41,122 nt of DNA from Candidatus Methylomirabilis sp. Its GTDB lineage: Bacteria; DYJV01. Positions within the stretch are counted from its first letter, which is position 1; each line of letters opens with the position of its first letter. A program made the position numbers and the translations under genes. A model generated the notes under the pieces. The model had not been told where the DNA came from, ran no database searches, and worked only from the letters and a program-made list of their open reading frames with translations. Below, piece after piece: positions 12,050-35,135 of the stretch. The DNA lies in NCBI GenBank assembly GCA_020722945.1, contig DYJV01000017.1:1-41122 (forward strand), read 5' to 3'.

Positions 12050-14425
12050 CTATTTTTTCTCTTCACAAATTTTATACATTAACTTTTCACAAGTAAATGG
12101 TAAGCTGTTTATCCTCACTCCTACTGCATTTTTAATTGCATTTCCAATAGCAGGGGCAACTGGGATAAGACCAATTTCACCTATACCTTTTGCTCCAAAT
12201 GGTCCGAGAGGATCACCTTTTTCAATAAGTTTTATATTTATCTCAGGTGTATCCATAAAAGTTGGGACTTTATAATCGAGCAGGTCAGGGTTCATTATCT
12301 TGCCATTTTGAAGAATCATCTGTTCGTAAAGTGCAAAACCAATCCCCTGCATTACTCCTCCATAGATTTGACCTTCGAGAAGCATAGGATTCATTGCTTT
12401 TCCCACATCATGAGCAGCAACAAATTTTAAAATTTTAACCTCACCTGTCTCATCGTCTATCTCAACTTCTACACCATGAGCAGCAAAAACGTATGTTTCA
12501 CTGATATTACCCTTTGATTTCGTGGGGTTAAGCATATCTGTATCAGGTTCAAAGAAAGTTTCTGTAACTATCATATTGCCATCTTTAGAGCCCCTGAAAT
12601 GTATTCTTCTTAATATCTTATCTAATGGGATATGGTAGTCTATCTCCTCACTACTCCTCTTCAAAAAGATTGATCTATTTTTTATATCTAACTCATCTTT
12701 TATACTTAATAAATGTAGCAAATCACCTTTGAAATTTTTATTTTCTCTGTTTTTCTTAATTACTTCATCCTTCATAAATAGTGTAGCATACTCAAGAATT
12801 TTATTTTTTGCTTCGGTTGAACATCTTATAGCTGCTTTACATGAAACATACATCTGTCTACTTGCATGTGTTCCAACATCCCATGGACATATATCTGTGT
12901 CGTGTCTGATAATTTTTATATCTTCTGGAAAAACACCGAGAATCTCAGAGACTGTCTGTGAGATGACAGTTTCTGAACCTTGTCCTATTTCGGTAGCTCC
13001 AGTATAGATATAAACTTTACCAAAATCATCTAATCTCAGTATCATCCCATGTCCATCAGAGCGATATATTCTTGCAGCTCCACCTACATGTATCAGTGCA
13101 GCAATTCCCACTCCTCTATTTTTGACTCTTTTTTTATCCCAATCAAGTTCTTTTTTTACTGTATTGATACACTCTTTGAGGCCACAAGATGAAATTTGTA
13201 AGCCCATTGGAGTAGTATCTCCTGTTTCATTTGCATTTAACAACCTAAATTCAATAGGGTCGATGCCAATTTTTGTAGCCAGCTCATCAATTGAGCTCTC
13301 TATTGCAAATGTAGCTTGAGGGTTCCCGTATCCCCTAAAAGCTTGTGAATAAATATTATTGGTATAAATACATTTTGCTTGAAAAGCAACAGCAGGGACT
13401 CTATACAATGAACTCATAGGAACAAACATTACAGATGGAGTTGTTGCTCCCCAAGAGGTATATGCCCCATTGTCGAGGATAGCGTCAGCTTTTCTGAATG
13501 TGAGTTTACCATTTGCATCACACCCATGGGAGATGGTTATTACAGAGGGTTGTCTTGGAGCCATTGCAATAAACTCTTCTGTTCTATCAAAGAGAATTTT
13601 GACAGGTTTCTTACTCATCCATGCGAGTATCACTGCAATATGTTCGTAACAGTGTGTATCAAGTTTATTTCCAAAAGCTCCACCAATAGTAGGGGTAACG
13701 ACCCTGACATTTTTATCTTTTAGAGCTAAAGAGTGTAGTAAATCAGTAAAATCGTTCTGTGCAAGATTTGGTATCTGTGTAGGCATATAAACCGTAAGGT
13801 TGTTTTGGTGGTCAAACTCTGCAATTACACCTGTGGTTCCCATGCAGCAGTGGTGAGCCCAAGAAGTCTCATATCGCCCTTCGACTATATATTTAGATTT
13901 TTTCATATACTCTTCAATATTGTTGTGCTCAAACTTCCATTTTACAGGTAAGGTATTGTTTTTTATAGGTTTACCATTTGAATCAAAATCATGTATCGAT
14001 GGTGCTCCATCTTTCATAGCTTCAAATGGGTCAAAAACAGACTCTATCGGTTCATATTCCACTTTTATAAGGGAGATAGCCTCCTCTGCAACATCTTCAG
14101 AGATAGCAGCAACAGCAGCAACCTCATCCCTATATTGCCTAACTTTATCAGACTTTATTATAGGATTATCCTTCATAAAACCTATTTTAAAATTTTTTGC
14201 AGGGTTTGTGTCTCTTGTTAGGAGTGCTTTAACCCCAGCAACTTTAAGAGCTTTTGATATATCAATATTTTTTATCAGTGCATGACTATACTCACTTCTT
14301 TTTATCTTGCCATATAACATTTTGGGTCTTTTAAGGTCTTGGATATAGATTGCTTCACCTGTCAATTTTTCAGGAGCATCTATTTTTGGCAATCTTTTCC
14401 CTATAAAAGAAAATTCATTTTTCAT
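12050..14425 (-). CDS. Molybdenum hydroxylase large (Mo-binding) subunit, xanthine dehydrogenase family
   Basis: This subunit carries the molybdopterin cofactor and hydroxylates an aromatic or N-heterocyclic carbon with water as oxygen donor. The 791-residue protein has the family's pterin motifs: IGGAFGNK, QAFRGYGNPQATFAIES, GATEIGQGSE and the C-terminal GPFGAKGIGEIG. The essential base is present as Glu750, aligned with Glu1261 of bovine xanthine oxidase. It is the last gene of the leftward operon, two bases after the small subunit. In the proposed indole-3-acetate pathway this complex is the best candidate for hydroxylating C2 of the indole ring to 2-oxoindole-3-acetate. The exact substrate cannot be read from sequence; other N-heterocycles remain possible. 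Confidence 0.85.
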   Translation of the reverse strand: MKNEFSFIGKRLPKIDAPEKLTGEAIYIQDLKRPKMLYGKIKRSEYSHALIKNIDISKALKVAGVKALLTRDTNPAKNFKIGFMKDNPIIKSDKVRQYRDEVAAVAAISEDVAEEAISLIKVEYEPIESVFDPFEAMKDGAPSIHDFDSNGKPIKNNTLPVKWKFEHNNIEEYMKKSKYIVEGRYETSWAHHCCMGTTGVIAEFDHQNNLTVYMPTQIPNLAQNDFTDLLHSLALKDKNVRVVTPTIGGAFGNKLDTHCYEHIAVILAWMSKKPVKILFDRTEEFIAMAPRQPSVITISHGCDANGKLTFRKADAILDNGAYTSWGATTPSVMFVPMSSLYRVPAVAFQAKCIYTNNIYSQAFRGYGNPQATFAIESSIDELATKIGIDPIEFRLLNANETGDTTPMGLQISSCGLKECINTVKKELDWDKKRVKNRGVGIAALIHVGGAARIYRSDGHGMILRLDDFGKVYIYTGATEIGQGSETVISQTVSEILGVFPEDIKIIRHDTDICPWDVGTHASRQMYVSCKAAIRCSTEAKNKILEYATLFMKDEVIKKNRENKNFKGDLLHLLSIKDELDIKNRSIFLKRSSEEIDYHIPLDKILRRIHFRGSKDGNMIVTETFFEPDTDMLNPTKSKGNISETYVFAAHGVEVEIDDETGEVKILKFVAAHDVGKAMNPMLLEGQIYGGVMQGIGFALYEQMILQNGKIMNPDLLDYKVPTFMDTPEINIKLIEKGDPLGPFGAKGIGEIGLIPVAPAIGNAIKNAVGVRINSLPFTCEKLMYKICEEKK

Positions 14426-14427
14426 TA

Positions 14428-14925
14428 CTAATCCCCTGTCTGAATAGCAGAGTTTCTCTTCTCTATAAGGTTCTTTACACTTTCAATAATCTGGAGATAA
14501 CCTGTGCATCTACAGATATTACCTGAAAGGGCTTTCTTTATATCATCTTTACTTATATTTTTATAATTATCACTTAATTCATCAATAAAAGCTTTTGTGC
14601 TCAAAACCATACCCGGAGTGCAAAAACCACATTGAACAGCACCATTTTCAAGGAATGCTCTCTGTATTTCAGAAAGTTGACCGTTTTTAGCTACTCCTTC
14701 GATTGTGGTAACATCTTTACCCTCTATCTCGATTGCAGGGTAGAGACAGCTATTGATATTTAATTTATCAACAATAACTGTGCATGCACCACATTCACCC
14801 ATTCCGCAACCCTCTTTTGTCCCGGTCAGTTGAAAATTATCCCTCAATATATCTATTAAAAATTGATTCTCTTCAATATAGCATTCAACACTCTCTCCAT
14901 TTAATCTGAATGATATCTTCTTCAT
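14428..14925 (-). CDS. Molybdenum hydroxylase [2Fe-2S] small subunit
   Basis: This subunit relays electrons between the Mo site and FAD through two [2Fe-2S] clusters. In 165 residues it has the plant-ferredoxin-type cluster ligands Cys40, Cys45, Cys48 and Cys60 (motif GCGMGECGAC) and the second cluster motifs CGFCTPGM and CRCTGY. The length is standard. It lies between the FAD subunit (11 bp upstream) and the Mo subunit (2 bp downstream), giving transcription order FAD, FeS, Mo. The ATG at 14925 follows AGAGAGG. Confidence 0.92.
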   Translation of the reverse strand: MKKISFRLNGESVECYIEENQFLIDILRDNFQLTGTKEGCGMGECGACTVIVDKLNINSCLYPAIEIEGKDVTTIEGVAKNGQLSEIQRAFLENGAVQCGFCTPGMVLSTKAFIDELSDNYKNISKDDIKKALSGNICRCTGYLQIIESVKNLIEKRNSAIQTGD

Positions 14926-14936
14926 GCAGCCTCTCT

Positions 14937-15800
14937 TTACTTTCTTAATCTTCTAAATGCTTCGAGACTTGCTCTTCTTACATATACAGCTACAACTTTT
15001 CTCTTATGCCAATCTATGCCACGTATGTCAGTTATCGGAGAACACTCATCCTTTGCAATTTCCCCTGCTTGATATAAAATCTCCTCTGAAAAAATTTTAT
15101 CTTTAAGAAAATTTTCTGTTTTGAATGCACGTATAGGTGTGGGAGCAACTGTTGTTAATCCTATTTTTGCATCGGTTATAATCTCTCCATTTAGATTCAG
15201 ATTAACAGCAACCCCTACATTTGCCAAATCCATTGCACCTCTCTTCATAAATTTGTAGTATGCTGAAGAAGTGGTGGGAGATGGCTTTTTTATTATAATT
15301 TCGGTTAACAACTGCTCCTGATTCAGTAAAGTTTTCTTTGGCCCTATAAAAAAATCTTTAAGATCGAGAATACTCTCTTTAAGTGTATTGTCGATTATCT
15401 TAATTTTTGCCTCATATACAAGAAGTGGGGAGAGTGTGTCAGCAGCGGGTGATGCGTTGCAGATGTTACCCCCCAATGTTCCTACATTTCTTATCTGGAT
15501 TGATGCCATTCTTATAAGTGCATCGTAAAGGGCAGGAAAATTACACCTTACTATTGGAGATAACTCTATATCCCTTAGAGGTGTAGAGCTTTTGATTACG
15601 ATATTATTGCCTACATCGTAAATACCGTAGAGGTCTTTAATGTTTCTAAGAGATATAAGTGTTTTAGGAGCTATAATCCCCTTTTTCATCAGAAGAAAAA
15701 TATCTGTCCCACCGGCTATAAAAAGAGAGTTTTCAGTGTCGACTTTTTTCAAAGTCAAAGCTTCTTCTATGGTTAAAGGTTTAAAGTATCTGAATTTCAC
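14937..15800 (-). CDS. Molybdenum hydroxylase FAD-binding medium subunit
   Basis: This subunit passes electrons from the iron-sulfur subunit to an external acceptor through FAD. The 287-residue protein has the two FAD-binding signatures of the CoxM/XdhB family: AGGTDIFLLMKKG and RNVGTLGGNICNASPAAD. It lacks the cysteine-rich insert found in the paralogue at 27593-28561, so it is a plain hydroxylase-type subunit. I chose GTG at 15800, preceded by AAGGGG, over an in-frame GTG seven codons upstream that has no ribosome binding site. A 104-bp gap containing a strong hairpin separates it from the binding-protein gene upstream. Confidence 0.88.
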   Translation of the reverse strand: MKFRYFKPLTIEEALTLKKVDTENSLFIAGGTDIFLLMKKGIIAPKTLISLRNIKDLYGIYDVGNNIVIKSSTPLRDIELSPIVRCNFPALYDALIRMASIQIRNVGTLGGNICNASPAADTLSPLLVYEAKIKIIDNTLKESILDLKDFFIGPKKTLLNQEQLLTEIIIKKPSPTTSSAYYKFMKRGAMDLANVGVAVNLNLNGEIITDAKIGLTTVAPTPIRAFKTENFLKDKIFSEEILYQAGEIAKDECSPITDIRGIDWHKRKVVAVYVRRASLEAFRRLRK

Positions 15801-15851
15801 ATTAAATCCCCTTATTGGCACAATAATACTATATCAACATTTTTTTAAAGA

Positions 15852-15904: not shown

Positions 15905-17044
15905 TTATTTAACAAGCTCCCATTTGCCGTTGGCTACTTTTACAAGAACGACATCTTTAATATCAAGTCCATTGTGGTCAGTAGGTGAAAGATCGTATAT
16001 TCCACTTATCCCTATGTATCCTTTTGTATTTTCTATTGCGTCTCTCAATTTATCTTTGTCAGTTGAACCTTTGGTTTTTTCAAGAGCATCAACAACTATA
16101 TATGCAGCATCCACACCATAAGCTACCATTGTCCCTGGAGGGTTGCCAAATTTTTTAGTAAACATCTTTACAAATTCCTGAATTTTCTTCTTTTGAGGGT
16201 CATTGTCTGCTAACTGTTCAGAAACATAAACTTTAGTAGCAGGCATGATGACACCTTCTGCTGCGTCACCTGCAACTTTGAGGAATATAGGATCGCACTG
16301 ACCATGGCATTGGAAGAGGGGTTGTTTCATATCGAGTCGTTTCTTATTTTTTGCAACTATTCCACCAGCAGGACCTATTGTCCAGCATATTATTACATCA
16401 GGTTTATTCTCTTTCATCTTGACAAGTTGAGGTGTCATATCTACATCTTTTGTCCCAAAACTTTCAGAGGTAGTCATCTTTACTCCATAGTTAGCTTCAA
16501 TCTGTTTAGCAACAGTAAAACCATCTTTTCCAAAGCCATCTGCAGCATATATAAAACCGTAAGTTTTGAGCCCGTTTGCTTTCATATATTCAAATATTTT
16601 TCCGAGTGCAGATGATGACCTATATGGTGATTTGAAAACATACTTCACAGGTGGTTTGTCGATAATCACATCACTCCCTGCGTGCATAAATATAGGGACT
16701 TTCACACTGTCAATGTATGGTTTGATTGCCATTCCAGAGCCTGTGGTTGTAGGTCCAATAATTAGTGCAACCCCATCATTTTCAACTAATTTTTTTGTGT
16801 TCATCAATGTTTTGGTAGGGTCCGATTCAGTATCGTAGCCTATAAATTCTATCTTCTTGCCATTTATCCCACCTTTTGAATTTACATCTTGAAAGATAAG
16901 ATCACAAGCCTCTTTCTGTGATATTCCAATATGTGCGGCAGGTCCGGTAAGTGCAAACAACCCACCTATTTTGATCACTTCACCTGCAACAAGTGACCCT
17001 GTAAATGATAAAATAACCAGTAATGACAATAAAATTTTTTTCAT
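15905..17044 (-). CDS. Branched-chain amino acid-type (HAAT) ABC transporter substrate-binding protein
   Basis: This periplasmic receptor delivers ligand to the LivHMGF transporter. The 379-residue protein begins with a signal peptide (MKKILLSLLVILSFTGSLVAG) and continues with the Leu/Ile/Val-binding fold, seen in IKIGGLFALTGPAA, NSKGGINGKKIEFIGYDTESDP and LIIGPTTTGSG. Related proteins bind aromatic acids as well as amino acids; given its operon partners, the proposed ligand is an aromatic acid such as indole-3-acetate. The ATG at 17044 is preferred over 17056 because GGAGGGG lies just before it. Its cognate permease and ATPase genes are not adjacent but lie in the divergent operon at 29997-33348. 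Confidence 0.9.
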   Translation of the reverse strand: MKKILLSLLVILSFTGSLVAGEVIKIGGLFALTGPAAHIGISQKEACDLIFQDVNSKGGINGKKIEFIGYDTESDPTKTLMNTKKLVENDGVALIIGPTTTGSGMAIKPYIDSVKVPIFMHAGSDVIIDKPPVKYVFKSPYRSSSALGKIFEYMKANGLKTYGFIYAADGFGKDGFTVAKQIEANYGVKMTTSESFGTKDVDMTPQLVKMKENKPDVIICWTIGPAGGIVAKNKKRLDMKQPLFQCHGQCDPIFLKVAGDAAEGVIMPATKVYVSEQLADNDPQKKKIQEFVKMFTKKFGNPPGTMVAYGVDAAYIVVDALEKTKGSTDKDKLRDAIENTKGYIGISGIYDLSPTDHNGLDIKDVVLVKVANGKWELVK

Positions 17045-17097
17045 GATCCCCTCCATTGTTTTAATCTTTAGCCATAATTTTTATGACTAATAGTTTG

Positions 17098-18390
17098 TTA
17101 ATTGAATCTGTTATCAAAAACTCTTTTGGTTTTTCTCTCTGATCTTGGTAAAGCTCTATGGTCAACAATCTCAACTGCTGTTGTTACCATAATTTTTTTC
17201 TTGATTTGATCTTGTATAAACTGTGAAAGTTTATCTCTATCAATACCTTTACTAAACTCTGATTCCTCTACTTTGAGAAGCATATAATCTTTTCCATCAT
17301 TTTCCCTATTGAGATGAACTTGATATTCACTTCCTACACTTTCAATCCTTGAAAGGATAGTATCTATTTCACTTGGATATATATTTACTCCTCTAAATAT
17401 AAACATATCATCACTTCTGCCAAGTATCCTATCGTGTCTTGGCAAAAAGCAACCACACTTGCAAATACCAGGTATAATCTTTGTAATATCTCTTGAACGA
17501 TATCGGACAAGTGGTGCAGCTTCTTTGAAGAGAGTTGTATATACCATCTCACCCGTTTCACCCTCTTTGACAGGTTGCAATGTGTCAGGATCTATAATCT
17601 CTAAAATATAAAAATCTGCCCAATAGTGTATCCCATTGTGGAATTTACAATCAAGCCCTGTCCCTGGTCCATAAAGCTCTGTCAACCCCGGTATATCAAA
17701 GATATCATTTACCCCTGTCAATGAACTTATCTTTCTTATGATTGAATCACTTGTTCTTTCTGAACCGAGAATTATCTTTTTTAGGTTGATTTTATCCCGT
17801 ATCCCCCTTTTATTAATCTCTTCAGCCATCAGTAGAGCCATAGAAGCTGTGCAGCAGATAACAGTAGATTGAAAATCAATCAAAAATTCACATTGAAGAT
17901 CAAGGTTTCCCGGTCCTGTCGGTATTGACATTGCTCCAAATTTTTCACACCCTATCTGAAATCCAAAACCTGCTGTCCATACACCGTAACCTACACATAT
18001 CTGGACTCTATCCTCCTCTGTGAGGCCTGCCATTTCGTAGCATCTTGCAAACATATACAACCAGTCTTCAATATCTCTATCAGTGTAAGATAATATTTTT
18101 CTCTTACCTGTTGTCCCGCTTGAGGCATGAATCCTAATAATATCTCTAAAATCAACACTCTTTAGAGGGAATGGATATTCATCTCTCAAATCTTGAGCAG
18201 TTGTAAATGGAAGTTTTACAATGTCATTAAGAGTCTTTATATCATCAGGTTTGACCCCTGCTTCATTGAATTTTCTGTTGTAAAAACTTGAGTTGTTGTA
18301 AGCATGAGTGACTGTCCATTTTAATCTTTCGAGCTGTAATTTTTTAAGCTCCTCAATATTTTTTACCTTAGGCGGAAATTTTTGAAGCAT
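17098..18390 (-). CDS. PaaK-type aryl-CoA ligase (AMP-forming)
   Basis: This adenylate-forming enzyme activates an aryl-carboxylic acid to its CoA thioester with ATP. The 430 residues match phenylacetate-CoA ligase length. Visible motifs are the phosphate loop IHASSGTTGKRK, the YGVWTAGFGFQ segment, the adenine-region motif GLTELYGPG and the hinge region HDRILGRSDDMFIFRGVNIYPSEI, followed by the small C-terminal domain typical of PaaK. In Aromatoleum, IaaB is an indoleacetate-CoA ligase of this family in the iaa operon; the same role, or activation of (2-aminophenyl)succinate, is inferred here. The substrate is not proven. Good AAGGAG upstream of the ATG. Confidence 0.85.
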   Translation of the reverse strand: MLQKFPPKVKNIEELKKLQLERLKWTVTHAYNNSSFYNRKFNEAGVKPDDIKTLNDIVKLPFTTAQDLRDEYPFPLKSVDFRDIIRIHASSGTTGKRKILSYTDRDIEDWLYMFARCYEMAGLTEEDRVQICVGYGVWTAGFGFQIGCEKFGAMSIPTGPGNLDLQCEFLIDFQSTVICCTASMALLMAEEINKRGIRDKINLKKIILGSERTSDSIIRKISSLTGVNDIFDIPGLTELYGPGTGLDCKFHNGIHYWADFYILEIIDPDTLQPVKEGETGEMVYTTLFKEAAPLVRYRSRDITKIIPGICKCGCFLPRHDRILGRSDDMFIFRGVNIYPSEIDTILSRIESVGSEYQVHLNRENDGKDYMLLKVEESEFSKGIDRDKLSQFIQDQIKKKIMVTTAVEIVDHRALPRSERKTKRVFDNRFN

Positions 18391-18418: not shown

Positions 18419-20137
18419 TTATTTAAATTTTTCTCTCTTTGAAATCTGTGTAAAAGTATCGGGGTCAATTACTACACCGTAGTCACTCTCTGCTTTTTCT
18501 ATTGAAATTACTTGGTTTTGGACATCTCTTAATAATTTATCTACTTCCCGTTCAAGAGGATTTCCGTAACCACCGCCGCCACCTGCTTCCTGATAGTAGA
18601 TGGTGCCTTTTTTTATATTGTCTATCATATCTTTGGTGGTTGTCCTATAAATTCTTCCGTCAGGGTAAATCAGCTCTATTTTGTTTAGTGTCCCCTCTTT
18701 CCCTCCGTGAGAACCGAAAGCAGGTTCAATATCTCCATCACCAAATGTAACAAGTTTTGTATTGTCACTACCTATTATAAATTTTGTTTTTACTCCGAGA
18801 CCACCTCTCCATCTACCCGCACCTGCTGAATCTTCCCAATATTCGTGCTGGAGTAAAAGATGTGGTGTCTGCTGTTCAAACATTTCATAATCTTGATCCA
18901 AAACTCCGCCAGAAGCATCAATCATACCTATATGGTCATAACCATCACAACCCATGATAGCACCAGAGCCGCCTTTTAATCCCATAAAGCATATATCAAC
19001 ATAAGACTCATTTTTTTTCGGATTGATTCCTGTTGTAAGAGAGCATAAAAGCTCATTCCACTCTGCTGTTACTCTATCAGGGATAGCTTGAGACAAAGCT
19101 CTCATAATTGCATCAGCATTGTTAGGGCAGAGATGATTCCCATAAGTTGTTGCCGCAGGGTATTTTGCATTAAGTATTGTCCCCTCAGGGATAATGATCT
19201 CAATAGGTCTTATCATCCCCTGATTGTGGGGGATGTCGGGGCTGACCATTTGAAGAAAAGTAAGGATAGTAGCTGATGCGCTTGAAGTGAATGTTCCATT
19301 TACAAAGCCTGGGGTTTGCAGATCTGTGCCACTATAATCAAAAATTATCTTCTCATCTTCAACAGTAATAGTCACCCGTATTTTATATTTTGAATTGGGA
19401 ATTTTACCATCATAAAAAACGTTGCTTTCACCTTTATAAATTCCGTTGGGGATACTTTTTATCTCTGATTTCATCATCTTTTCAGTAGAATCAAATAGGT
19501 AATTTTTGTGTGCTTCAAAAACCTCTACTCCATATCTTTCGATTATATCGAGAAATCTTCTCTCACCCACAACACAGCTGCCAATTTCAGCTTTCATATC
19601 CTCTGCAACAATAGGTAGTCTTATATTTGCAAAGATAAGGTTCCATACATCTTTTCTAAGTTTTCCCTTCTCATACACTTTTACAGGTGGTATCCTAAGG
19701 GCTTCCTGCCAAACTTCAGTTGCCGCAGGATTGTATCCACCCTGCACAGCACCACCGATATCTGCCTGATGCCCTTTACATGCAGACCAGCCTACAAGCT
19801 CATCTTTGTAAAAGATAGGTTTGTATACTGCAACATCGTTGTTTTGGTTGCCAAATGAAAAAACATCGTTGTGAAAGATAACATCACCTGGGTATATTTC
19901 GCTACCAAAATAATTTATTATATATTTGCAGACAGGTGCCAAAGAGAATGCAAGTATTGGCAGATTTTCTGTTTGCTCAAGCATGTTCCCCTCTCTATCG
20001 TAAAGACCTGTCACAAAATCTTTTGCTTCACAAAGGATAGGGGATCTTGTTGTTTTTTCAAGAGCAATGCTCATCTCATCTGTGATAGCTTTTAATCTCC
20101 GTCTTAATATTGAAACAAGAACTTTATCTATATTCAT
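18419..20137 (-). CDS. HyuB-family subunit of ATP-dependent amide/lactam hydrolase (IaaC/IaaE-like)
   Basis: The hydantoinase B/oxoprolinase/acetone carboxylase alpha family partners with HyuA proteins to hydrolyse cyclic amides using ATP, or to carboxylate ketones. The 572-residue protein has the family hallmarks DVIFHNDVFSFGNQNNDVAV, WSACKGHQADIGG and the C-terminal glycine-rich block ending YYQEAGGGGGYGNPLER. It begins 14 bases after the HyuA gene. Acetone carboxylases need a third, small gamma subunit, which is absent here, arguing for hydrolysis. In the Iaa pathway IaaCE opens the 2-oxoindole-3-acetate lactam to (2-aminophenyl)succinate; that function is inferred from the gene set. A general N-methylhydantoinase or oxoprolinase role is the alternative. 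Confidence 0.82.
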   Translation of the reverse strand: MNIDKVLVSILRRRLKAITDEMSIALEKTTRSPILCEAKDFVTGLYDREGNMLEQTENLPILAFSLAPVCKYIINYFGSEIYPGDVIFHNDVFSFGNQNNDVAVYKPIFYKDELVGWSACKGHQADIGGAVQGGYNPAATEVWQEALRIPPVKVYEKGKLRKDVWNLIFANIRLPIVAEDMKAEIGSCVVGERRFLDIIERYGVEVFEAHKNYLFDSTEKMMKSEIKSIPNGIYKGESNVFYDGKIPNSKYKIRVTITVEDEKIIFDYSGTDLQTPGFVNGTFTSSASATILTFLQMVSPDIPHNQGMIRPIEIIIPEGTILNAKYPAATTYGNHLCPNNADAIMRALSQAIPDRVTAEWNELLCSLTTGINPKKNESYVDICFMGLKGGSGAIMGCDGYDHIGMIDASGGVLDQDYEMFEQQTPHLLLQHEYWEDSAGAGRWRGGLGVKTKFIIGSDNTKLVTFGDGDIEPAFGSHGGKEGTLNKIELIYPDGRIYRTTTKDMIDNIKKGTIYYQEAGGGGGYGNPLEREVDKLLRDVQNQVISIEKAESDYGVVIDPDTFTQISKREKFK

Positions 20138-27105: not shown

Positions 27106-27129
27106 TATATCCTCCAGAATCTTGAAAAG

Positions 27130-27600: not shown

Positions 27601-28561
27601 TTGTAACTCCAAAATTATCGATGATTTTTTGAAATAAAGTTGTAGATAGTAATTTTCTATGCTCTGGAGTAGAGGGCATATTGGCAATAGGTTTTGGTTG
27701 TTTCTCTATGATTGAGGTGATTTTACCTAATCTATCTTTTGAAAAATTGGTTATATCTATTGTAATAGGTTGTGAATCAACTGCATTTAAGACTATCCTC
27801 ATATTTGAAGGATTATCCTTGCTATAACCTACGGCAACTCCTGAAAGTGGGTAGTCTATAGAATTTCTCAATCTAAATTTTTCGTAAAATGATATTTTGG
27901 TTGAAATATTTTTGAGGATCAGTTGTGTAACTACTTCGTTTGTTTTTAGGATATTAGGTTTTGTGCCATCTCCTGTATAAAAATCTTTAAGTGGAATTGT
28001 TCTAAAAGTTTCTCCATTAAATATTTCGAGCTCAGCATCAACTGAAATTAGCATTGGTGGGAGATCAGCACTAAATACCGCAAAGCATTTTTTGGAACCG
28101 GGCAAGGCATTGCATACATTGCCACCCAGCTTGTAGCAAGGTTTACGGCTGCTTCTCCAATTTGCAGATTGGTTGTAGTATAGACATCTTGTATCAAGAG
28201 AGATATTCCCACCGATAGTTGCTCTGTTTTGTAAAGGTGGAGCGGCAATAAGTTTCCCTGCTATTGCAAGAGATGGGAATACTTTTTTTATAATCGGAGA
28301 GTTAATTATTTCAGAAATAGTGGTCAAAGAGCCTATCAAAAGGGTATCACTCTCTTTTTTATAATTGATAAATCTCATCTCATCAATTTTTGAAAGAGAT
28401 ACAAGGAGATCTAAATTTGGATATAAACTTTTTTTTATGTTGGGAATAATCTGTGTGCCGCCTGCAGAGTATAAATATCTACTACTGTTTTTTAGAAGAA
28501 AGAATGAAAGCTCTGAGATAGTGAGAGGAATGACTACATCAAACTTTGATGGTAATCCCAT
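27593..28561 (-). CDS. FAD subunit with [4Fe-4S] insert, 4-hydroxybenzoyl-CoA reductase beta-like
   Basis: The medium subunit has the FAD motifs SAGGTQIIPNIKK and RATIGGNISLDTRC. After the second motif it carries a cysteine-rich insert with Cys126, Cys142, Cys150 and Cys159. The spacing is identical to Cys122, 138, 146 and 155, which bind the extra [4Fe-4S] cluster in Thauera aromatica 4-hydroxybenzoyl-CoA reductase. The flanking residues CLYYNQS and NWR are also HcrB-like. In that enzyme the cluster lets low-potential ferredoxin electrons drive reductive dehydroxylation. It is the first gene of the leftward operon. ATG 28561 has AGGGGG upstream and is preferred over an in-frame TTG five codons earlier. 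The length, 322 residues, matches HcrB. Confidence 0.85.
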   Translation of the reverse strand: MGLPSKFDVVIPLTISELSFFLLKNSSRYLYSAGGTQIIPNIKKSLYPNLDLLVSLSKIDEMRFINYKKESDTLLIGSLTTISEIINSPIIKKVFPSLAIAGKLIAAPPLQNRATIGGNISLDTRCLYYNQSANWRSSRKPCYKLGGNVCNALPGSKKCFAVFSADLPPMLISVDAELEIFNGETFRTIPLKDFYTGDGTKPNILKTNEVVTQLILKNISTKISFYEKFRLRNSIDYPLSGVAVGYSKDNPSNMRIVLNAVDSQPITIDITNFSKDRLGKITSIIEKQPKPIANMPSTPEHRKLLSTTLFQKIIDNFGVTNG

Positions 28562-28581: not shown

Positions 28582-28593
28582 TATGTATACATA
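28582..28593. promoter_or_regulatory. Palindromic operator TATGTATACATA, leftward side
   Basis: Perfect 12-bp palindrome between the leftward promoter and the first gene of the leftward operon, at about +13 to +24. It is identical to the palindrome at 28744-28755. The TGTATACA core resembles sites of FCD-type GntR regulators, and a GntR/FCD gene lies at the end of the rightward operon. Confidence 0.7.
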
Positions 28594-28716: not shown

Positions 28717-28745
28717 TTGACAACTAACATTGTTTTAAGTATGTA
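28717..28745 (+). promoter_or_regulatory. Predicted promoter of the rightward catabolic operon
   Basis: TTGACA at 28717-28722 and TATGTA at 28740-28745 are 17 bp apart. The operator palindrome at 28744-28755 overlaps the -10 box and the expected start point, a layout suited to repression. The gene starts at 28779. Confidence 0.55.
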
Positions 28746-28755
28746 TGTATACATA
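28744..28755. promoter_or_regulatory. Palindromic operator TATGTATACATA, rightward side
   Basis: Second exact copy of the 12-bp palindrome, 162 bp from the first and overlapping the rightward -10 box. An additional ATGT half-repeat precedes it (28741-28744). It is a probable site for the GntR/FCD regulator at 34482-35135. Confidence 0.7.
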
Positions 28756-28778: not shown

Positions 28779-29975
28779 ATGGAGACTTCCCATTTATTTT
28801 CAAAGGTTACAGTTCTTGCATTGGAGCAGGCTATAGTGGTTCCTTACTTTACCTACAAGATGGTTATAGATGGAGCAAATGTTATAAGATTGGAACACCC
28901 TATAAATCACGACCCAAATAGATTAGTTGGTGATAGAGTGATTGACGAAGATAAGATGAATAGCTATTTTCTCACTATTAACAGTGGCAAAAAGTGTGTT
29001 ACCCTAAACCTTAAATCTAAAAAGGGGCAGGCTCTTTTATACGATATGATCAAATCTCTCGATGTAGATATTTTTATAACCAACCAATTACCTAAAAATT
29101 ACGATACTCTTGGTATAAGTTATGACAAGATCTCATCAGTAAAAGAAGATATTATCTGGGTTGGTGTTACAGGTTTTGGCAAAGATAGCAATGAGGGAGC
29201 ATACGACCCAATACTTCAAGCAAGAGCTGCTCTTATGGATCTCACAGGTGAAGCGTCTGGTGACCCTCAGGTTATAGGTATTCCACTACCCGATATGGGA
29301 AGCAGTGAGCAAATTTATGGACTTGTGATGAAAGCTCTTTTTAAAAAAGCTGTTACCTCCAAAGGTAGCAGGATAGATTTTTCAATGTTCAGAAGTAGTG
29401 TGAGTTGGCATGCTATTAATATCCCGATGGTCTCTTCATTCAACAAAAAGATTACAAGAAGGGGTAATACTCACGAATTTTTTGCACCTGTATCTGTCTA
29501 CAAAACAAAAGATTCCTACATTTATATTGCTATTGGAAACAATCGGCAATGGGAAGATTTTTCCAAACTTCAAACATTCTCCTCTCTTGATATTCCAGAT
29601 TATAAGCTTAATGAAGGTAGGATAAAAGATGTTACTAATCTTAACAACAAAATCAACAAAATCACCTCTTCACTTTACACTGATGAGCTTCTGCAAATGT
29701 TAAAAGAGATAACTGTCCCTTCATCTAAGATAAACTCTCTTGAAGATCTATTGTCAGACCCCCATTTGGATAATAAATTCCTAAAAAGTATCGATAAAGA
29801 TAAAAATTTAGAGATCAAATTATCTCCACCTGCTTACGATACAGATTTTATAAATGATTCAAGGACTTTATCTTTTCCGCCAAGATTAGGTGAGCATAAT
29901 ATCGAGATATACAGAGATATCCTCAAAATATCAGATGACCAACTTTTACAATTAAAAAATGAAGGGGTGATATGA
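28779..29975 (+). CDS. iaaL: Class III (family III) CoA-transferase, IaaL-like
   Basis: Family III CoA-transferases move CoA between carboxylic acids through an aspartyl-CoA anhydride. The 398-residue protein has the fold's N-terminal LALEQAIVVPYFTYKMVIDGANVIRLEHP pattern and the catalytic Asp172 in IGIPLPDMGSSEQIYG. Length is typical. IaaL of Aromatoleum is a phenylsuccinyl-CoA transferase of this class in auxin degradation; by gene context this enzyme would activate (2-aminophenyl)succinate. Substrate assignment is inference, and a general aryl-acid CoA-transferase is the alternative. It is the first gene of the rightward operon, with AGAGG before the ATG and a strong regulated promoter upstream. 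Confidence 0.72.
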   Translation: METSHLFSKVTVLALEQAIVVPYFTYKMVIDGANVIRLEHPINHDPNRLVGDRVIDEDKMNSYFLTINSGKKCVTLNLKSKKGQALLYDMIKSLDVDIFITNQLPKNYDTLGISYDKISSVKEDIIWVGVTGFGKDSNEGAYDPILQARAALMDLTGEASGDPQVIGIPLPDMGSSEQIYGLVMKALFKKAVTSKGSRIDFSMFRSSVSWHAINIPMVSSFNKKITRRGNTHEFFAPVSVYKTKDSYIYIAIGNNRQWEDFSKLQTFSSLDIPDYKLNEGRIKDVTNLNNKINKITSSLYTDELLQMLKEITVPSSKINSLEDLLSDPHLDNKFLKSIDKDKNLEIKLSPPAYDTDFINDSRTLSFPPRLGEHNIEIYRDILKISDDQLLQLKNEGVI

Positions 29976-29996
29976 CACCCTCTTTTGAGGATTAAG

Positions 29997-30872
29997 ATGG
30001 AGAATATATTACAATTTATAATTTCAGGGATTACAACAGGGAGTATATATGCTTTGATAGCATTAGGATTCTCTGTTATTAACAATTCAACCGGCATTGT
30101 CAATATACTTCAATGTGAGTTTATAACTTATGGCGGGATGCTCACAGTTACATTTTATCTCTTCTCAAAATTTCCACTTCCGTTGGCAATAATATTTTCA
30201 GTTATAGTTGTTGCAATTTTTGCAGGTCTTTTTGAACGTTTAATAATAAGAAATTCAAAATCAAAAGATATTATGCTTCTGATATTCATAACCATTGGAG
30301 CTTCGATATTCTTTAAAGGGCTTGCTCTTCTTATTTGGGGTTCAGACCCTTTTACTATACCATCTTTCTCTGGTGAGCAGATTATAAAATTTTTGGGGGC
30401 TGTGATTATTCCGCAAAATTTATGGATATTAGGTATTACTTTTGTTACCGTAACTCTTTTACATCTTTTCTTTAAAAATACAATTACAGGAAAAGCTATG
30501 AGAGCTGTCTCTATCAATAAAAAAGCAGCAGAGATTGTTGGGATAAATATCAATAAGATGATATTCTTGTCATTTGTAATAAGTGGATTTCTTGGTTCAA
30601 TTGCAGGCATAATAATAGCACCTATCACTACCACTTCCTACGATATAGGATTTATGCTTGGGCTAAAAGGTTTTGCTGCTGCTATACTTGGTGGTTATGG
30701 TAGTATGGCAGGTTCTGTTGTCGGTGGTTTGCTTCTTGGAATCCTTGAAAGCATAGGTGCAGGTGAAATTTCCTCAACTTACAAAGATGTAATTGCTTTT
30801 GTTGTTCTTATCCTCATCCTTTTTATTAAACCAACAGGTATTTTAGGCAGCAGATATGTTGACAAAGTTTAA
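29997..30872 (+). CDS. livH: HAAT-family ABC transporter permease LivH
   Basis: LivH-type inner-membrane permease of a branched-chain amino acid-like importer. The 291-residue protein is strongly hydrophobic, with about eight membrane segments and the family motifs TTGSIYALIALGFSVINNSTGIVN near the start and LKGFAAAILGGYGSMAGSVVGGLLLGILE near the cytoplasmic coupling region. ATG 29997 has TGAGGAT upstream; the earlier in-frame TTG overlaps that ribosome binding site. It belongs to the rightward operon and probably works with the binding protein encoded at 15905-17044. Confidence 0.9.
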   Translation: MENILQFIISGITTGSIYALIALGFSVINNSTGIVNILQCEFITYGGMLTVTFYLFSKFPLPLAIIFSVIVVAIFAGLFERLIIRNSKSKDIMLLIFITIGASIFFKGLALLIWGSDPFTIPSFSGEQIIKFLGAVIIPQNLWILGITFVTVTLLHLFFKNTITGKAMRAVSINKKAAEIVGININKMIFLSFVISGFLGSIAGIIIAPITTTSYDIGFMLGLKGFAAAILGGYGSMAGSVVGGLLLGILESIGAGEISSTYKDVIAFVVLILILFIKPTGILGSRYVDKV

Positions 30873-31794
30873 AGATAATTTTCTTTACCAACTAATTTTT
30901 ACTATTATCGTGTCCTTTATCCTCTATATCTGTATAAAGAGTAACTATCTAATATTGGTAATGAATATTATAGGTTTAAATGCAATTATAGTCATAGGTA
31001 TCAATCTCCTCGTAGGTTATGCAGGTCAAATTTCACTTGGACATGCAGCTTTTTACGGTATAGGGGCATATAGTTCAACTATTCTTACCACAACTTACAG
31101 TTTTAATCCATGGCTTGCTCTCATACTTGCCGCAATTATCACTGCTGTTTCTGCTTTTATTATAGGGAAACCATCTCTCAAATTAAAGGGGCACTATCTT
31201 GTTATGGCAACACTTGGTTTTAATATGATTGTCTCTATTATTCTTGTTCAATGGGAAGAGTTTACAGGTGGACCTTCAGGGATACCGGGAATACCGTATC
31301 TTAAAATAGGTGATTTTGTGTTTAATTCAGATAAAAAGTTTTTTATACTTATTTTGATATTTTTAATCTTATCATTAATTACTGCTCACAATCTTGTTAA
31401 TTCAAGAGTTGGACGGGGGATACGCTCTTTACATAGTAGTGAAATTGCAGCCGCATCATTGGGTATAGATGTAAGTGAGTATAAAATAAAAATTTTTGTT
31501 TTGAGTGCTGTTCTTGCAAGTATCTCAGGGAGTTTGTATGCTCACTACTTTACTTTTATAAGTCCCAAATCTTTTGATATAATTTTTTCAATAAAAATTA
31601 TTATAATGTCTATCTTTGGTGGGATATCCACTATCTGGGGAGCATTGATAGGTAGTGCAGTATTGACAATACTTGGAGAAGTGCTAACAATTATTGAAGA
31701 TTTCTCCACTATTACATTAGGGTTGATACTGATATTTACACTTATGTTTATTCCTGAAGGTGTTGTAGGTTACATAAAAAAAAGGATAAAATAG
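30856..31794 (+). CDS. livM: HAAT-family ABC transporter permease LivM
   Basis: Second permease of the Liv-type importer, 312 residues, multi-spanning. Family motifs include NLLVGYAGQISLGHAAFYGIGAY and the coupling segment FGGISTIWGALIGSAVLTIL. The start overlaps livH by 17 bp, indicating coupled translation. The length lacks any fused ATPase domain, as is normal. Confidence 0.9.
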   Translation: MLTKFKDNFLYQLIFTIIVSFILYICIKSNYLILVMNIIGLNAIIVIGINLLVGYAGQISLGHAAFYGIGAYSSTILTTTYSFNPWLALILAAIITAVSAFIIGKPSLKLKGHYLVMATLGFNMIVSIILVQWEEFTGGPSGIPGIPYLKIGDFVFNSDKKFFILILIFLILSLITAHNLVNSRVGRGIRSLHSSEIAAASLGIDVSEYKIKIFVLSAVLASISGSLYAHYFTFISPKSFDIIFSIKIIIMSIFGGISTIWGALIGSAVLTILGEVLTIIEDFSTITLGLILIFTLMFIPEGVVGYIKKRIK

Positions 31795-31818
31795 TATTTA
31801 AAATAAAGGATTATTAGA

Positions 31819-32595
31819 TTGAAGGTTTTAGAGGTAAAAAATATCTACAAAAGTTTTGGTGGGCTGATGGCTTTATCAAATATAACATTTGATATTGATG
31901 ATGCTTCAATTACATCTATAATTGGTCCAAATGGAGCAGGCAAATCAACGCTTATCAATGTAATATCTGGTATATATAAGCCTGATAAAGGTTCAGTATT
32001 TGTTGGAGGTAGAGAGATTACAGGTGTCCCATTACATCGGATAAATAGGTATGGAATAAAGAGAACATTTCAGAATATTCAGATATTTTCAAATCTTACA
32101 GTCATCGAAAATATAATGCTTGGTTTTCATTCTGTTACAAAATATGAATTTATAAATTGTATCTTAAACCTCAAATATGTAAAAGATCAGGAGGAGTTTA
32201 TTAAGATTGAGAGCAGAAATATACTCAAGCAGTTCAAGATGGAGCATTTTGCTGATAAGTATGCGTCGGAGCTACCTTATGGGCAGCAAAAGAAGCTTGA
32301 AATTGCAAGGACAATTGCTGCTAATCCAGATATTATCTTTCTTGATGAACCTGCAGCAGGTCTCAATATTTCAGAAACAAAGGAGATAAGTGAAATTATC
32401 ATAAGATTAAAGATGAATGGCAAATCTATTATATTGATAGAGCACGATATGAATATGGTTATGGATATATCTGATAAGATAGTTGTTCTTAATTTTGGAG
32501 AAAAGATAGCAGAAGGTTCATCTTACGATATACAAAATAATATTGATGTTATCTCCGCATATCTTGGAAAATCGTTTAACAATAAAATGGAGTAA
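31819..32595 (+). CDS. livG: HAAT-family ABC transporter ATPase LivG
   Basis: First ATP-binding subunit of the importer, 258 residues. Walker A is GPNGAGKST, Walker B is IIFLDEP, and the signature region is SELPYGQQKKLEIARTIA, the LPYGQQ form typical of LivG. The LivG/BraF-type loop around RTFQNIQIFSNLTVIENIMLG is present. Translation starts at TTG with AAAGGA upstream, suggesting modest expression. Confidence 0.92.
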   Translation: MKVLEVKNIYKSFGGLMALSNITFDIDDASITSIIGPNGAGKSTLINVISGIYKPDKGSVFVGGREITGVPLHRINRYGIKRTFQNIQIFSNLTVIENIMLGFHSVTKYEFINCILNLKYVKDQEEFIKIESRNILKQFKMEHFADKYASELPYGQQKKLEIARTIAANPDIIFLDEPAAGLNISETKEISEIIIRLKMNGKSIILIEHDMNMVMDISDKIVVLNFGEKIAEGSSYDIQNNIDVISAYLGKSFNNKME

Positions 32596-32598
32596 ACT

Positions 32599-33348
32599 TT
32601 GTTAGATGTAACCAATGTTTCCACATATTATGGGCAGATAGAAGCTGTAAAGGATGTATCGATTTCTATCAAAAGTGGTGAAATAATCTCAATAATAGGG
32701 AACAATGGAGCAGGGAAAACTACACTTATAAATACAATTTCAGGGTTAATAAAACCTAAAAAAGGGAGTATCACTTTTAATGGTGTTGAGATAACAACTT
32801 CTACTGTCAATAAGATAGTAAATTTGGGGATAGTCCAAGTTCCTGAGGGGAGAGAAGTATTTTCATCCCTGACTGTAAAAGAGAATCTTGAGTTGGGAGC
32901 TTATTCAAGATACAAAAAGGAAAGCAAGGAAGATATATCTGAATCTCTTGAAGATATTTATATGTTATTCCCTATTTTAAAGATGCGGGAGAAGCAGGTT
33001 GCAGGGACATTGAGTGGGGGTGAGCAGCAGATGCTTGCAATTGGCAGAGGTTTGATGTCAAAGCCTAAACTTATGCTCCTTGATGAGCCATCTTTGGGTC
33101 TTGCTCCACTTGTGGTTGAAGAAGTCTTTGAAACAGTAAAAAAGCTTAATAAAAGTGGGACTACTTTTATAATAGTTGAGCAGAATGCTTTTACTGCTCT
33201 TAAATATTCAGAGAGAGCTTATATTTTTGAATTAGGTAAAGTTGTTCTTCAGGGGAATTCAAGGGATCTTCTCAATGATCCAAAGATTGAGGAGTCATTT
33301 CTCGGTAAAAAAGCTATCAAAATTAAATCTGGAGGTTACGATGCCTGA
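32599..33348 (+). CDS. livF: HAAT-family ABC transporter ATPase LivF
   Basis: Second ATP-binding subunit, 249 residues. Walker A is GNNGAGKTT, the signature is GTLSGGEQQMLAIGRGLM, and Walker B is LMLLDEPSLGL. The LivF-type motif VPEGREVFSSLTVKENLELGA is present. The start is TTG, three bases after livG, with GGAG upstream. Its end overlaps the start of the acyl-CoA dehydrogenase gene by 8 bp. Confidence 0.92.
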   Translation: MLDVTNVSTYYGQIEAVKDVSISIKSGEIISIIGNNGAGKTTLINTISGLIKPKKGSITFNGVEITTSTVNKIVNLGIVQVPEGREVFSSLTVKENLELGAYSRYKKESKEDISESLEDIYMLFPILKMREKQVAGTLSGGEQQMLAIGRGLMSKPKLMLLDEPSLGLAPLVVEEVFETVKKLNKSGTTFIIVEQNAFTALKYSERAYIFELGKVVLQGNSRDLLNDPKIEESFLGKKAIKIKSGGYDA

Positions 33349-34474
33349 TGAATACAAGCTATTTAGAGAATCTGTAAGAAGATTCGTTGATAATGAGATA
33401 AAACCTTATGCTCAAGAGTTTGAAGATCGAAAAGAGTTTCCGATGCCACTTTTCAAAAAAATTGCAAAGATGGGTTATTTCGGTATCAGGTATCCTGAAG
33501 AGGTTGGAGGTAGCTCCGGAACAGCAACTATGTTTAATATTTTATGTGAAGAGCTTGCGAGGGGTTATATGAGTATTGCAGCGATAACAGCGATGCAGTG
33601 CTTGATGGGGACAAATTTTATCTTTAAATATGGGACAAAAAATCATCATGATAACTATCTTAAACCTGCTATTAGAGGTGAAAAGATAGCAACATTTGCA
33701 TTGACAGAGCCTGATGCAGGTAGTGATCTTTCGAATATAAAGAGTATTGCTGAGCGAAAGGGTGATAGATTCATCATAAATGGTAGTAAAACATGGATTA
33801 CTAATTCATCTGTTGCTGATTTTTTTACGGTTTTGTGTCTGACTGACAGAGAGAAGAGGCTAAAAGGTGCAAATTTTTTCTTAATTCCAAAAGAGGTAAA
33901 AGGGCTTACTGTTTCAAAAAAATTTGATAAAATTGGGACAAAATCTGCTGAAAATTCTGAAATATTTCTATCTAATGTTGAAGTTCCTATCGAAAATATG
34001 CTTGGGCAAGAGGGTAAAGGGATGAGTAACCTCCTCCAAATCCTTTCAGAGATAAGGACAATGACAGCTGCACTCAGTCTTGGATTGCTCCGAGCTGCTT
34101 TTGAAGAGAGCAGGAGATACTCCAAACAGAGAGTTCAGTTTGGTAAACCGATAGGTAGTTTTCAGTTGATCCAATCCAAATTGGCAAATATGGCTACAGA
34201 TATAGAAGTTTCAAAATGTTTCCTTTATAAAGTTTCAAAGATGATTGATAATGGTGAGAAGTGTGAGAAAGAAGCCTCAATGGCTAAATATTTTATATCT
34301 GAAGCTGCATGTAGAGCAGTAGACCAAGCTACGAGAATTTTTGGAAGTTATGGATTTTCATCTGAATATCCGGTTGGTAGATTTTTTACAGATTCAAGAT
34401 TTCTCCTCTTTGGCGGAGGGACATCAGAGATATTACAGAATAATATTGCAAGGGAAATATTGGAGGATAATTAA
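33341..34474 (+). CDS. iaaF: Acyl-CoA dehydrogenase lacking the usual catalytic Glu; IaaF-like (benzylmalonyl-CoA dehydrogenase)
   Basis: The 377-residue flavoprotein has all acyl-CoA dehydrogenase landmarks: FALTEPDAGSDL, INGSKTWITN, RVQFGKPIGSFQLIQ and RIFGSYGFSSEYPVGRFFTDSR. At the canonical base position the usual YEGTSEI is replaced by GGGTSEI (Gly359). The alternative base position of isovaleryl-CoA dehydrogenase, just before Arg239, is Ile238. IaaF of Aromatoleum oxidises and decarboxylates benzylmalonyl-CoA to cinnamoyl-CoA, with loss of CO2 replacing proton removal, so no base would be needed. ATG 33341, with GGAGG before it, overlaps the livF end; a longer upstream reading lies inside livF and is not real. 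Glu237 nearby could serve as an alternative base, so function remains inferred. Confidence 0.75.
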   Translation: MPDEYKLFRESVRRFVDNEIKPYAQEFEDRKEFPMPLFKKIAKMGYFGIRYPEEVGGSSGTATMFNILCEELARGYMSIAAITAMQCLMGTNFIFKYGTKNHHDNYLKPAIRGEKIATFALTEPDAGSDLSNIKSIAERKGDRFIINGSKTWITNSSVADFFTVLCLTDREKRLKGANFFLIPKEVKGLTVSKKFDKIGTKSAENSEIFLSNVEVPIENMLGQEGKGMSNLLQILSEIRTMTAALSLGLLRAAFEESRRYSKQRVQFGKPIGSFQLIQSKLANMATDIEVSKCFLYKVSKMIDNGEKCEKEASMAKYFISEAACRAVDQATRIFGSYGFSSEYPVGRFFTDSRFLLFGGGTSEILQNNIAREILEDN

Positions 34475-34481
34475 TTTATAG

Positions 34482-35135
34482 ATGACAAAAAAAGAGCAGA
34501 TATATAAAGATTTAAAGAAAAAATTGCTTGAATCAAAGATAAAGAGTTACGATGTCTTAAAGGAGGAGGAGCTTGCCGCAAAATATAAAATTAGCCGAAC
34601 TCCTATTAGGGAAGCACTCCAGCTTCTTGATAAAGAGGGTTTTCTAAAAAAGGTAAAGAAAGTAGGGTATATGCTCTGTCCACTTTCAAAAAAAGACCTT
34701 AACGAGATAATTGGGATAAGAAGTATTCTTGAAAGTTATGCAGCATATCTTGCCACTATAAACTATGAAAAGAGTGTTATTGATAAATTAAATAAAATAA
34801 ATGAAAAAGCGTATCAAACCATTCTCAATAATGATTTTGAGAGTTTTTTTAAGATCAATTCAGACTTTCACGAAACTATATACAATGCAAGTGGGAATCA
34901 GAGGTTGATACTCCTTATAAAAAATTTAAATGAAAATTTCATCAGGTATAGAGTGATGCTGCTCAAAGTAAAAAAGATGCCTGAGATTTCATACAACGAT
35001 CATCTTGAGATGATAGATGCGATGGAGAGCAGAAATGCTGATAAAGTTGAGAAACTTGTAAAAGAGCATATTATAAAGGGTGGGAAGATCCTTATAGATC
35101 ATATCAATAGTAGTGATATTGAGATATTTGGTTAG
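34482..35135 (+). CDS. GntR-family transcriptional regulator, FCD subgroup
   Basis: The 217-residue protein has an N-terminal winged helix-turn-helix (residues about 5-70, ELAAKYKISRTPIREALQLLDKEGFLKK) and an all-helical FCD effector domain (about 75-210), in which metal-ligand-type residues can be seen (the Asp/His motif DFHETIYNASGN and DHLEMIDAMESR). FCD regulators usually bind carboxylic acids and act as repressors. The gene is the last in the rightward operon, seven bases after iaaF-like. The twin TATGTATACATA sites at 28582 and 28744 match its expected operator form, so autoregulation and control of both operons are likely. The known Aromatoleum iaa regulator is, as I recall, of another family, so the control would be independently evolved. 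Confidence 0.88.
   Translation: MTKKEQIYKDLKKKLLESKIKSYDVLKEEELAAKYKISRTPIREALQLLDKEGFLKKVKKVGYMLCPLSKKDLNEIIGIRSILESYAAYLATINYEKSVIDKLNKINEKAYQTILNNDFESFFKINSDFHETIYNASGNQRLILLIKNLNENFIRYRVMLLKVKKMPEISYNDHLEMIDAMESRNADKVEKLVKEHIIKGGKILIDHINSSDIEIFG

Follow-up and report, generated by a model that had tools for sequence, protein, structure and literature searches.

The iaa operons of Aromatoleum aromaticum EbN1 and Azoarcus evansii contain genes for a binding protein, a coenzyme A (CoA) ligase, HyuAB, a class III CoA-transferase, a split B12-dependent mutase, a molybdenum (Mo) hydroxylase and the acyl-CoA dehydrogenase (ACAD) IaaF (PMC8360864). GGG, which replaces the active-site motif YEG in all orthologues of IaaF, is diagnostic for this enzyme; it is confined to IaaF among the ACAD subclasses compared, and the members of this branch all lie within iaa operons (PMC8360864). 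The published Iaa route heads towards 2-aminobenzoyl-CoA or benzoyl-CoA. Contig DYJV01000017.1 of Candidatus Methylomirabilis sp. (assembly GCA_020722945.1), called the window here and analysed over its full 41122 bases, carries an island at positions 12050-35135 that encodes the same types of protein. Family, motif and synteny make it very probable that this island serves to import indole-3-acetate (IAA) and to convert it, in the absence of oxygen, towards 2-aminobenzoyl-CoA along the Iaa route.

The window is the entire contig C164 of a genome of 2.51 Mb in 184 contigs, which is 98% complete and 5.8% contaminated. Its gene types were assigned by Pfam and NCBIfam scans. The island consists of two operons diverging from a spacer of ~200 bases. 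The minus operon runs from the start of FAD1 at 28561 down to the end of MoA2 at 12050 and encodes, in order of transcription, FAD1-FeS1-MoA1 (28561..24832), an epimerase-like protein, mutS, mutL, HyuA, HyuB, a ligase, a binding protein and FAD2-FeS2-MoA2. The plus operon (28779..35135) encodes a CoA-transferase, livHMGF, an ACAD and a GntR/FCD regulator. Start positions were revised for the ACAD (~33341), FeS1 (~27600) and FAD1 (~28561). The genes that make up the predicted route from import to the dehydrogenase are the following:

15905..17056, minus strand: periplasmic binding protein of a Liv-type ATP-binding cassette (ABC) importer, IaaM-like (PF13458)
29985..33348, plus strand: livHMGF, permeases and ATPases of the Liv-type ABC importer (PF02653 twice, PF00005 twice)
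17098..18390, minus strand: PaaK-like aryl-CoA ligase, IaaB-like, predicted to form indoleacetyl-CoA (PF14535/PF00501)
12050..14425, minus strand: MoA2, xanthine dehydrogenase (XDH)-type Mo hydroxylase subunit, predicted to hydroxylate the indole ring at position 2 (PF01315/PF02738/PF20256)
14428..14925, minus strand: FeS2, [2Fe-2S] subunit of the MoA2 hydroxylase (PF01799/PF00111)
14937..15821, minus strand: FAD2, flavin adenine dinucleotide (FAD) subunit of the MoA2 hydroxylase, lacking the [4Fe-4S] loop (PF00941/PF03450)
20152..22263, minus strand: HyuA, ATP-dependent lactam hydrolase subunit of the IaaCE type, predicted to open 2-oxoindoleacetyl-CoA (PF05378/PF01968/PF19278)
18419..20137, minus strand: HyuB, partner subunit of the lactam hydrolase (PF02538)
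28779..29975, plus strand: class III CoA-transferase, IaaL-like (PF02515)
22300..23940, minus strand: mutL, catalytic subunit of a split acyl-CoA mutase, IaaG-like, a putative arylsuccinyl-CoA mutase (TIGR00641 above cut-off)
23960..24361, minus strand: mutS, B12-binding subunit of the split mutase, IaaH-like (TIGR00640 above cut-off)
33341..34474, plus strand: ACAD, IaaF-like, a putative decarboxylating arylmalonyl-CoA dehydrogenase (PF00441/PF02770/PF02771; GGG motif)

An earlier note on this DNA had described a complete Aromatoleum-type island in two divergent operons. The operon pair and every gene type that it named are confirmed by the scans, and the Aromatoleum-type assignment is supported by the GGG motif, the mutase clade, the indolepyruvate-linked relatives and a benzoyl-CoA pathway in the host. 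The Mo hydroxylase that it named corresponds to the XDH-type MoA2; MoA1 belongs to a second Mo enzyme of a different kind, resembling 4-hydroxybenzoyl-CoA reductase (HBCR). The methylmalonyl-CoA-epimerase-like gene at 24388-24816 had been overlooked.

The active-site motif of the window ACAD is FLLFGGGTSEIL, and that of its counterpart in the related genome G001 is FLLYGGGTSEIL. GGG is also found in the ACADs of the loci L035, L036, L085, L086 and L087, while all remaining ACADs that were collected, including those of the host genome itself, have YEG, VEG or GEG. The mutase points in the same direction. In a maximum-likelihood tree of 50 sequences, to which A. aromaticum IaaG does not belong, mutL falls into a clade of eight with 100/100 support, comprising the window, G001, G088, G120, G210 and three Bacteroidota; the other 42 mutases, including two paralogues from the host genome, lie outside. 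All clade members on contigs long enough to judge are part of iaa-type clusters. Plasmid collections yielded no orthologue of the island, the best matches being ~45% for the mutase and 37% for HyuB. Elsewhere in the window (3597-4370, minus strand), a tetrapyrrole methylase that is CbiF/CobM-like by eye hints at B12 synthesis in a host whose mutase needs B12.

A ligase or CoA-transferase and a methylmalonyl-CoA-mutase-type enzyme are likewise shared by fumarate-addition pathways, which could suggest anaerobic degradation of alkanes or aryl-alkanes, in which the mutase would rearrange alkylsuccinyl-CoA ahead of its oxidation and decarboxylation. The gene content largely rules this out, so that its probability is close to nil: the window encodes no glycyl radical enzyme, HyuAB and two Mo enzymes would have no role in such a pathway, and the GGG motif is the one reported for IaaF.

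The substrate is indicated most clearly by related loci. A single scan of genome contigs with two narrow patterns, TKEQPMN as well as M[DK]E[NE]KQE, retrieved five loci, none of them from Aromatoleum. Clusters in two Bacteroidota metagenome-assembled genomes (L035, L036) and in G120 (L085) and G210 (L086) share HyuA, HyuB, the GGG dehydrogenase, mutS, mutL, the CoA-transferase and a MoA2-type hydroxylase, and they also hold genes for a fused indolepyruvate:ferredoxin oxidoreductase (IOR) alpha subunit and for the beta subunit (TIGR03336 scores 590 bits for the L035 alpha subunit, cut-off 651). Aminotransferase-like genes are found nearby in L035, L085 and L086. Because no ligase was matched in these four clusters and IOR genes are present, they likely represent tryptophan-fed versions of the same route, leading from tryptophan to aminobenzoyl-CoA. 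In the window, ligase and importer would stand in for IOR, as in Aromatoleum. The occurrence of the same genes next to IOR in the relatives ties the pathway to indoleacetyl-CoA, and no other evidence speaks as strongly for the substrate as this association across lineages. The literature search found no paper describing iaa-type clusters joined to IOR in place of a ligase. A further locus (L057, G000:C106, 6105-7901 and 556-2298) encodes an aldehyde ferredoxin oxidoreductase of the tungsten type; a second IorA-like gene lies close by, and hemL and gatA are adjacent.

The remaining enzymes of the route resemble those of the indolepyruvate-linked clusters to different degrees. HyuB shares 67-69% identity with its counterparts there and at most 37% with plasmid-borne HyuB, HyuA shares 50-53%, and the CoA-transferase, in which the Asp of LPDMG aligns to the conserved Asp of the family, shares 33-35% with those of iaa-type clusters. 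MoA2 retains the catalytic Glu of its family, and the Mo subunit of every iaa-type cluster is closer to MoA2 (41-48% identity) than to MoA1. The ligase scores 397 bits against TIGR02155 (cut-off 646). The nearest named NCBIfam of HyuA is the caprolactamase alpha subunit; degradation of caprolactam by CapAB was nevertheless rejected, HyuA and HyuB scoring 668 and 417 bits against cut-offs of 1000 for NF050156 and NF050157. By most features that can be tested, the island belongs to the Iaa kind.

G001, which belongs to the same order and a different family, is the only compared genome closer than the level 'same domain'; the Deferribacterota-like host considered in the earlier note is therefore not supported. 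The whole island is kept in G001 in identical order and orientation, including the order of livHMGF, with the break between its two contigs, C62 and C394, falling between MoA1 and FeS1. Identities between orthologues range from 45% (FAD1) to 84% (epimerase-like protein), with 82% for HyuB, 80% for the mutase and MoA1, 77% for the ligase, 71% for the ACAD and the binding protein, 67% for FeS1 and 53% for the GntR/FCD regulator, which occupies the equivalent position. Since gene order and divergent layout recur next to different flanks, the island is no chance assembly. A third, short contig (HyVt-111, L037) carries the epimerase-like gene, mutS, mutL and HyuA in this order. In the window, the flank at 35162-40761 (minus strand), which is unlike that in G001, encodes an O-antigen-type ABC exporter (Wzm/Wzt-like), methyltransferases and a radical SAM/SPASM protein.

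The following sequence of reactions can be proposed; its steps are deduced from family, motif and synteny, and what is read from the DNA is gene content, synteny, motif, clade and downstream genes. IAA would be taken in by the Liv-type importer and activated by the PaaK-like ligase to indoleacetyl-CoA, the indole ring of which is predicted to be hydroxylated by MoA2-FeS2-FAD2 to yield 2-oxoindoleacetyl-CoA. HyuAB would then open the lactam at the expense of ATP, producing (2-aminophenyl)succinyl-CoA, and the class III CoA-transferase would shift CoA to the other carboxyl group. Rearrangement by the B12 mutase mutLS would lead to (2-aminobenzyl)malonyl-CoA, the correct enantiomer of which may be provided by the epimerase-like protein, and the GGG dehydrogenase would oxidise and decarboxylate it to 2-aminocinnamoyl-CoA. 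The further conversion to 2-aminobenzoyl-CoA, through hydration, oxidation and thiolysis, would fall to enzymes encoded outside the island. Separately, and with less certainty, MoA1-FeS1-FAD1 may reductively deaminate 2-aminobenzoyl-CoA to benzoyl-CoA, which would feed into the pathway of class II reductase and BamA, whose genes lie elsewhere in the genome.

Genes for this lower pathway are present on two other contigs of the same genome. C141 carries a bam-like operon with a BamB protein of 653 aa that matches the benzoyl-CoA reductase 4z3w_A over its full length (E 2e-296). C69 encodes BamA (581 bits, cut-off 464), 6-hydroxycyclohex-1-ene-1-carbonyl-CoA dehydrogenase (493 bits, cut-off 339), glutaryl-CoA dehydrogenase and a thiolase. 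Contamination is an unlikely source of both contigs, because their tetranucleotide profiles group with that of the window (r ~0.95 versus 0.36-0.76 for other compared genomes). A class I benzoyl-CoA reductase was considered and rejected, as the genome contains only distant HGD-D proteins of this type in addition to the class II enzyme. In the Bacteroidota, the locus L060 (G060:C26:60001-80000) is a benzoyl-CoA cluster that encodes BamA, 6-hydroxycyclohexene-carbonyl-CoA dehydrogenase, activase and BcrB/HgdB-like proteins as well as an HBCR-like Mo enzyme; possible anaerobic benzoyl-CoA degradation in this phylum is worth a look.

Several observations weigh against the assignment to IAA degradation. 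Family scans of the window detect no enoyl-CoA hydratase (ECH), 3-hydroxyacyl-CoA dehydrogenase (HADH) or thiolase within the island, and an ECH/HADH fusion was not found in the host genome; such a fusion is present in L086 and next to L036 and L106. Since the genes for beta-oxidation lie elsewhere, the description of the island as complete is not tenable. There is also no dedicated gene for an electron transfer flavoprotein (ETF) in the island, unlike in the strict anaerobes of PMC8360864. In addition, the locus L087 (G088:C6:36001-56000) joins a GGG dehydrogenase and an IaaG-clade mutase to a distant HyuAB and CoA-transferase (HyuB just 29% and CoA-transferase 27% identical to those of the island), accompanied by a Mo hydroxylase, a MaoC-like protein, a thiolase, HADH, an amidohydrolase and Liv genes. 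L087 perhaps represents a sister pathway for another substrate, and with such distant partners the mutase clade alone cannot fix the substrate.

The G088 cluster, in which the core of mutase and GGG dehydrogenase is combined with other partners, also bears on the idea that the island acts on a related compound, either N-heteroaromatic or forming an arylsuccinate, for example a ring-substituted indoleacetate, from which MoA1 would remove the ring substituent. The additional HBCR-like enzyme would fit this idea, as HBCR is a ring dehydroxylase and no counterpart exists within the clusters L085 and L086. However, MoA2, HyuAB and the CoA-transferase are nearest to those of indolepyruvate-linked clusters, with 67-69% identity for HyuB, and an HBCR-type enzyme also occurs in the G061 cluster, where the entry enzyme is IOR. 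A related substrate is improbable, and IAA itself is favoured as the probable substrate of the island.

Besides the whole Liv importer, two components set the island apart from the iaa operon of A. aromaticum and A. evansii. The first is the epimerase-like protein:

24388..24816, minus strand: methylmalonyl-CoA-epimerase-like protein, a possible (2-aminobenzyl)malonyl-CoA epimerase (TIGR03081, 97.7 bits, cut-off 115)

A. aromaticum IaaF is enantiospecific and uses one enantiomer, and its turnover in vitro could be restarted with a methylmalonyl-CoA epimerase (PMC8360864). The gene between mutS and MoA1 encodes a VOC superfamily protein whose closest families are the methylmalonyl-CoA epimerases, and it offers a possible partner for this reaction. 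Unlike these epimerases, the window protein does not reach the family cut-off, and both it and the G001 orthologue have FL instead of HH at one of the conserved histidine positions. For these two reasons, an epimerase role is no more than plausible. A separate copy with the appearance of a canonical methylmalonyl-CoA epimerase lies on C10, beside another mutase.

The second component is the Mo enzyme whose three genes open the minus operon:

24832..27105, minus strand: MoA1, HBCR-like Mo subunit, a candidate deaminating aminobenzoyl-CoA reductase (1rm6_A, TIGR03194)
27130..27600, minus strand: FeS1, [2Fe-2S] subunit of the MoA1 enzyme (PF01799/PF00111)
27593..28561, minus strand: FAD1, transcribed first in the minus operon, FAD/[4Fe-4S] subunit of the MoA1 enzyme (TIGR03195, 1rm6_B)

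The best PDB match of MoA1 is the alpha subunit of HBCR (1rm6_A, E 1.2e-121). Like HBCR, the enzyme has three subunits, and its FAD subunit contains the additional [4Fe-4S] loop that is a hallmark of the HBCR family; the four cysteines of this loop are all kept when FAD1 is aligned to 1rm6_B (C131, C147, C155 and C164 of the open reading frame; C-x15-C-x7-C-x8-C). It differs from HBCR in its location inside an iaa island, in scores below the family cut-offs (MoA1, TIGR03194, 608 versus 995 bits; FAD1, TIGR03195, 204 versus 405 bits) and in the replacement of the catalytic Glu of the xanthine oxidase family (GAKxxGE) by Leu, both in the window and in the G001 orthologue. The catalytic role of this Glu is established for xanthine oxidase.

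A conversion of 2-aminobenzoyl-CoA to benzoyl-CoA has been reported in A. evansii (PMC4539516), for which no gene is named in the literature searched, and an HBCR-like gene product of Desulfatiglans anilini was proposed to reductively deaminate 4-aminobenzoyl-CoA (PMC7500099). MoA1-FeS1-FAD1 may accordingly be compared to the latter, both being HBCR-like with a putative role in reductive deamination of an aminobenzoyl-CoA; the D. anilini substrate is the para-amino compound derived from aniline, whereas here it would be the ortho-amino product of indoleacetate. Among the roles considered, namely reductive deamination, dehydroxylation of a substituted substrate and a second hydroxylation, the first is favoured, although it is held tentatively and at less than even confidence: MoA1-FeS1-FAD1 could form a new HBCR-like branch that lacks the usual Glu and reductively removes the amino group from 2-aminobenzoyl-CoA or from a 2-amino-aryl CoA ester further up the route.

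A second hydroxylase, acting for example on free IAA while MoA2 takes the CoA ester, is a rather unlikely role for MoA1 that would leave the pathway itself unaffected. Both MoA1 and MoA2 belong to the xanthine oxidase family and are encoded in the same operon, and MoA1 stays below the HBCR cut-off. Yet FAD1 has the HBCR-type [4Fe-4S] loop, the Glu required by the hydroxylases of the family is Leu in both MoA1 orthologues, and the hydroxylase common to all iaa-type clusters is MoA2-like.

HBCR-like enzymes accompany iaa genes in other genomes as well. In the Bacteroidota genome G061, one is encoded directly upstream of HADH/ECH-HyuA-HyuB genes, and in G060 another lies near benzoyl-CoA genes. 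HBCR-type beta subunits are present in 7/7 iaa-positive genomes; in a spread genome sample they occur in 5/5 iaa-positive genomes versus 42/367 others (Fisher p 2.7e-5, uncorrected for kinship). A single ancestral HBCR-like component of the iaa system was nevertheless rejected, because the iaa-associated copies form no clade and those of the Bacteroidota are closer to true HBCR and keep the catalytic Glu. On the same grounds, the HBCR-like enzyme of the window was probably recruited separately.

Expression of the two operons may be controlled from the spacer between them:

34482..35135, plus strand: GntR/FCD regulator (PF00392 and PF07729)
28583..28592, no strand: ATGTATACAT palindrome, candidate operator of the minus operon (same site in G001 at L158:1807-1816)
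28745..28754, no strand: ATGTATACAT palindrome, candidate operator of the plus operon (G001 has the variant ATGTGTGCATAAAA at the corresponding position)

ATGTATACAT occurs twice in the 41 kb window (0.08 expected), both times in the divergent spacer and once before each operon. The GntR/FCD regulator probably acts on these two sites; the textbook GntR operator TnGTnnnACnA has no match in the spacer. Just outside the island (8618-11530, plus strand), a hybrid histidine kinase that combines a periplasmic SBP_bac_3 domain with PAS domains and a receiver is a possible sensor.

The A. evansii iaa cluster of Ebenau-Jehle et al. 2012 reportedly also contains a GntR-type regulator, together with an ECH/HADH fusion and a thiolase. 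Compared to the operon of A. aromaticum EbN1 and A. evansii, the island adds a whole Liv importer, the HBCR-like Mo enzyme and the epimerase-like gene, it is without the ECH/HADH fusion and the thiolase, and its host has a class II benzoyl-CoA reductase. The clusters of Ferroglobus placidus, Desulfatiglans anilini, NaphS2 and Desulfocarbo, with which it can be likened by their description, show the Iaa core in strict anaerobes outside the betaproteobacteria, and several of them are reported with an ETF paralogue that the island lacks (PMC8360864). The main novelty claimed in the earlier note, an extension beyond denitrifying betaproteobacteria, falls for this reason, the pathway having already been reported in Ferroglobus, Desulfatiglans, NaphS2, Desulfocarbo, Rhodopseudomonas and Thermoplasmatales (PMC8360864).

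If the assignment is right, anaerobic auxin degradation extends to a little-sampled lineage that has a class II benzoyl-CoA reductase, and the core genes of the island would be linked through IOR to the catabolism of tryptophan in Bacteroidota and further groups. Should the tentative role of MoA1-FeS1-FAD1 hold, the reductive deamination of 2-aminobenzoyl-CoA could be assigned to specific genes, and the enzyme would link anaerobic auxin and tryptophan degradation, as well as anaerobic anthranilate degradation, to benzoyl-CoA.

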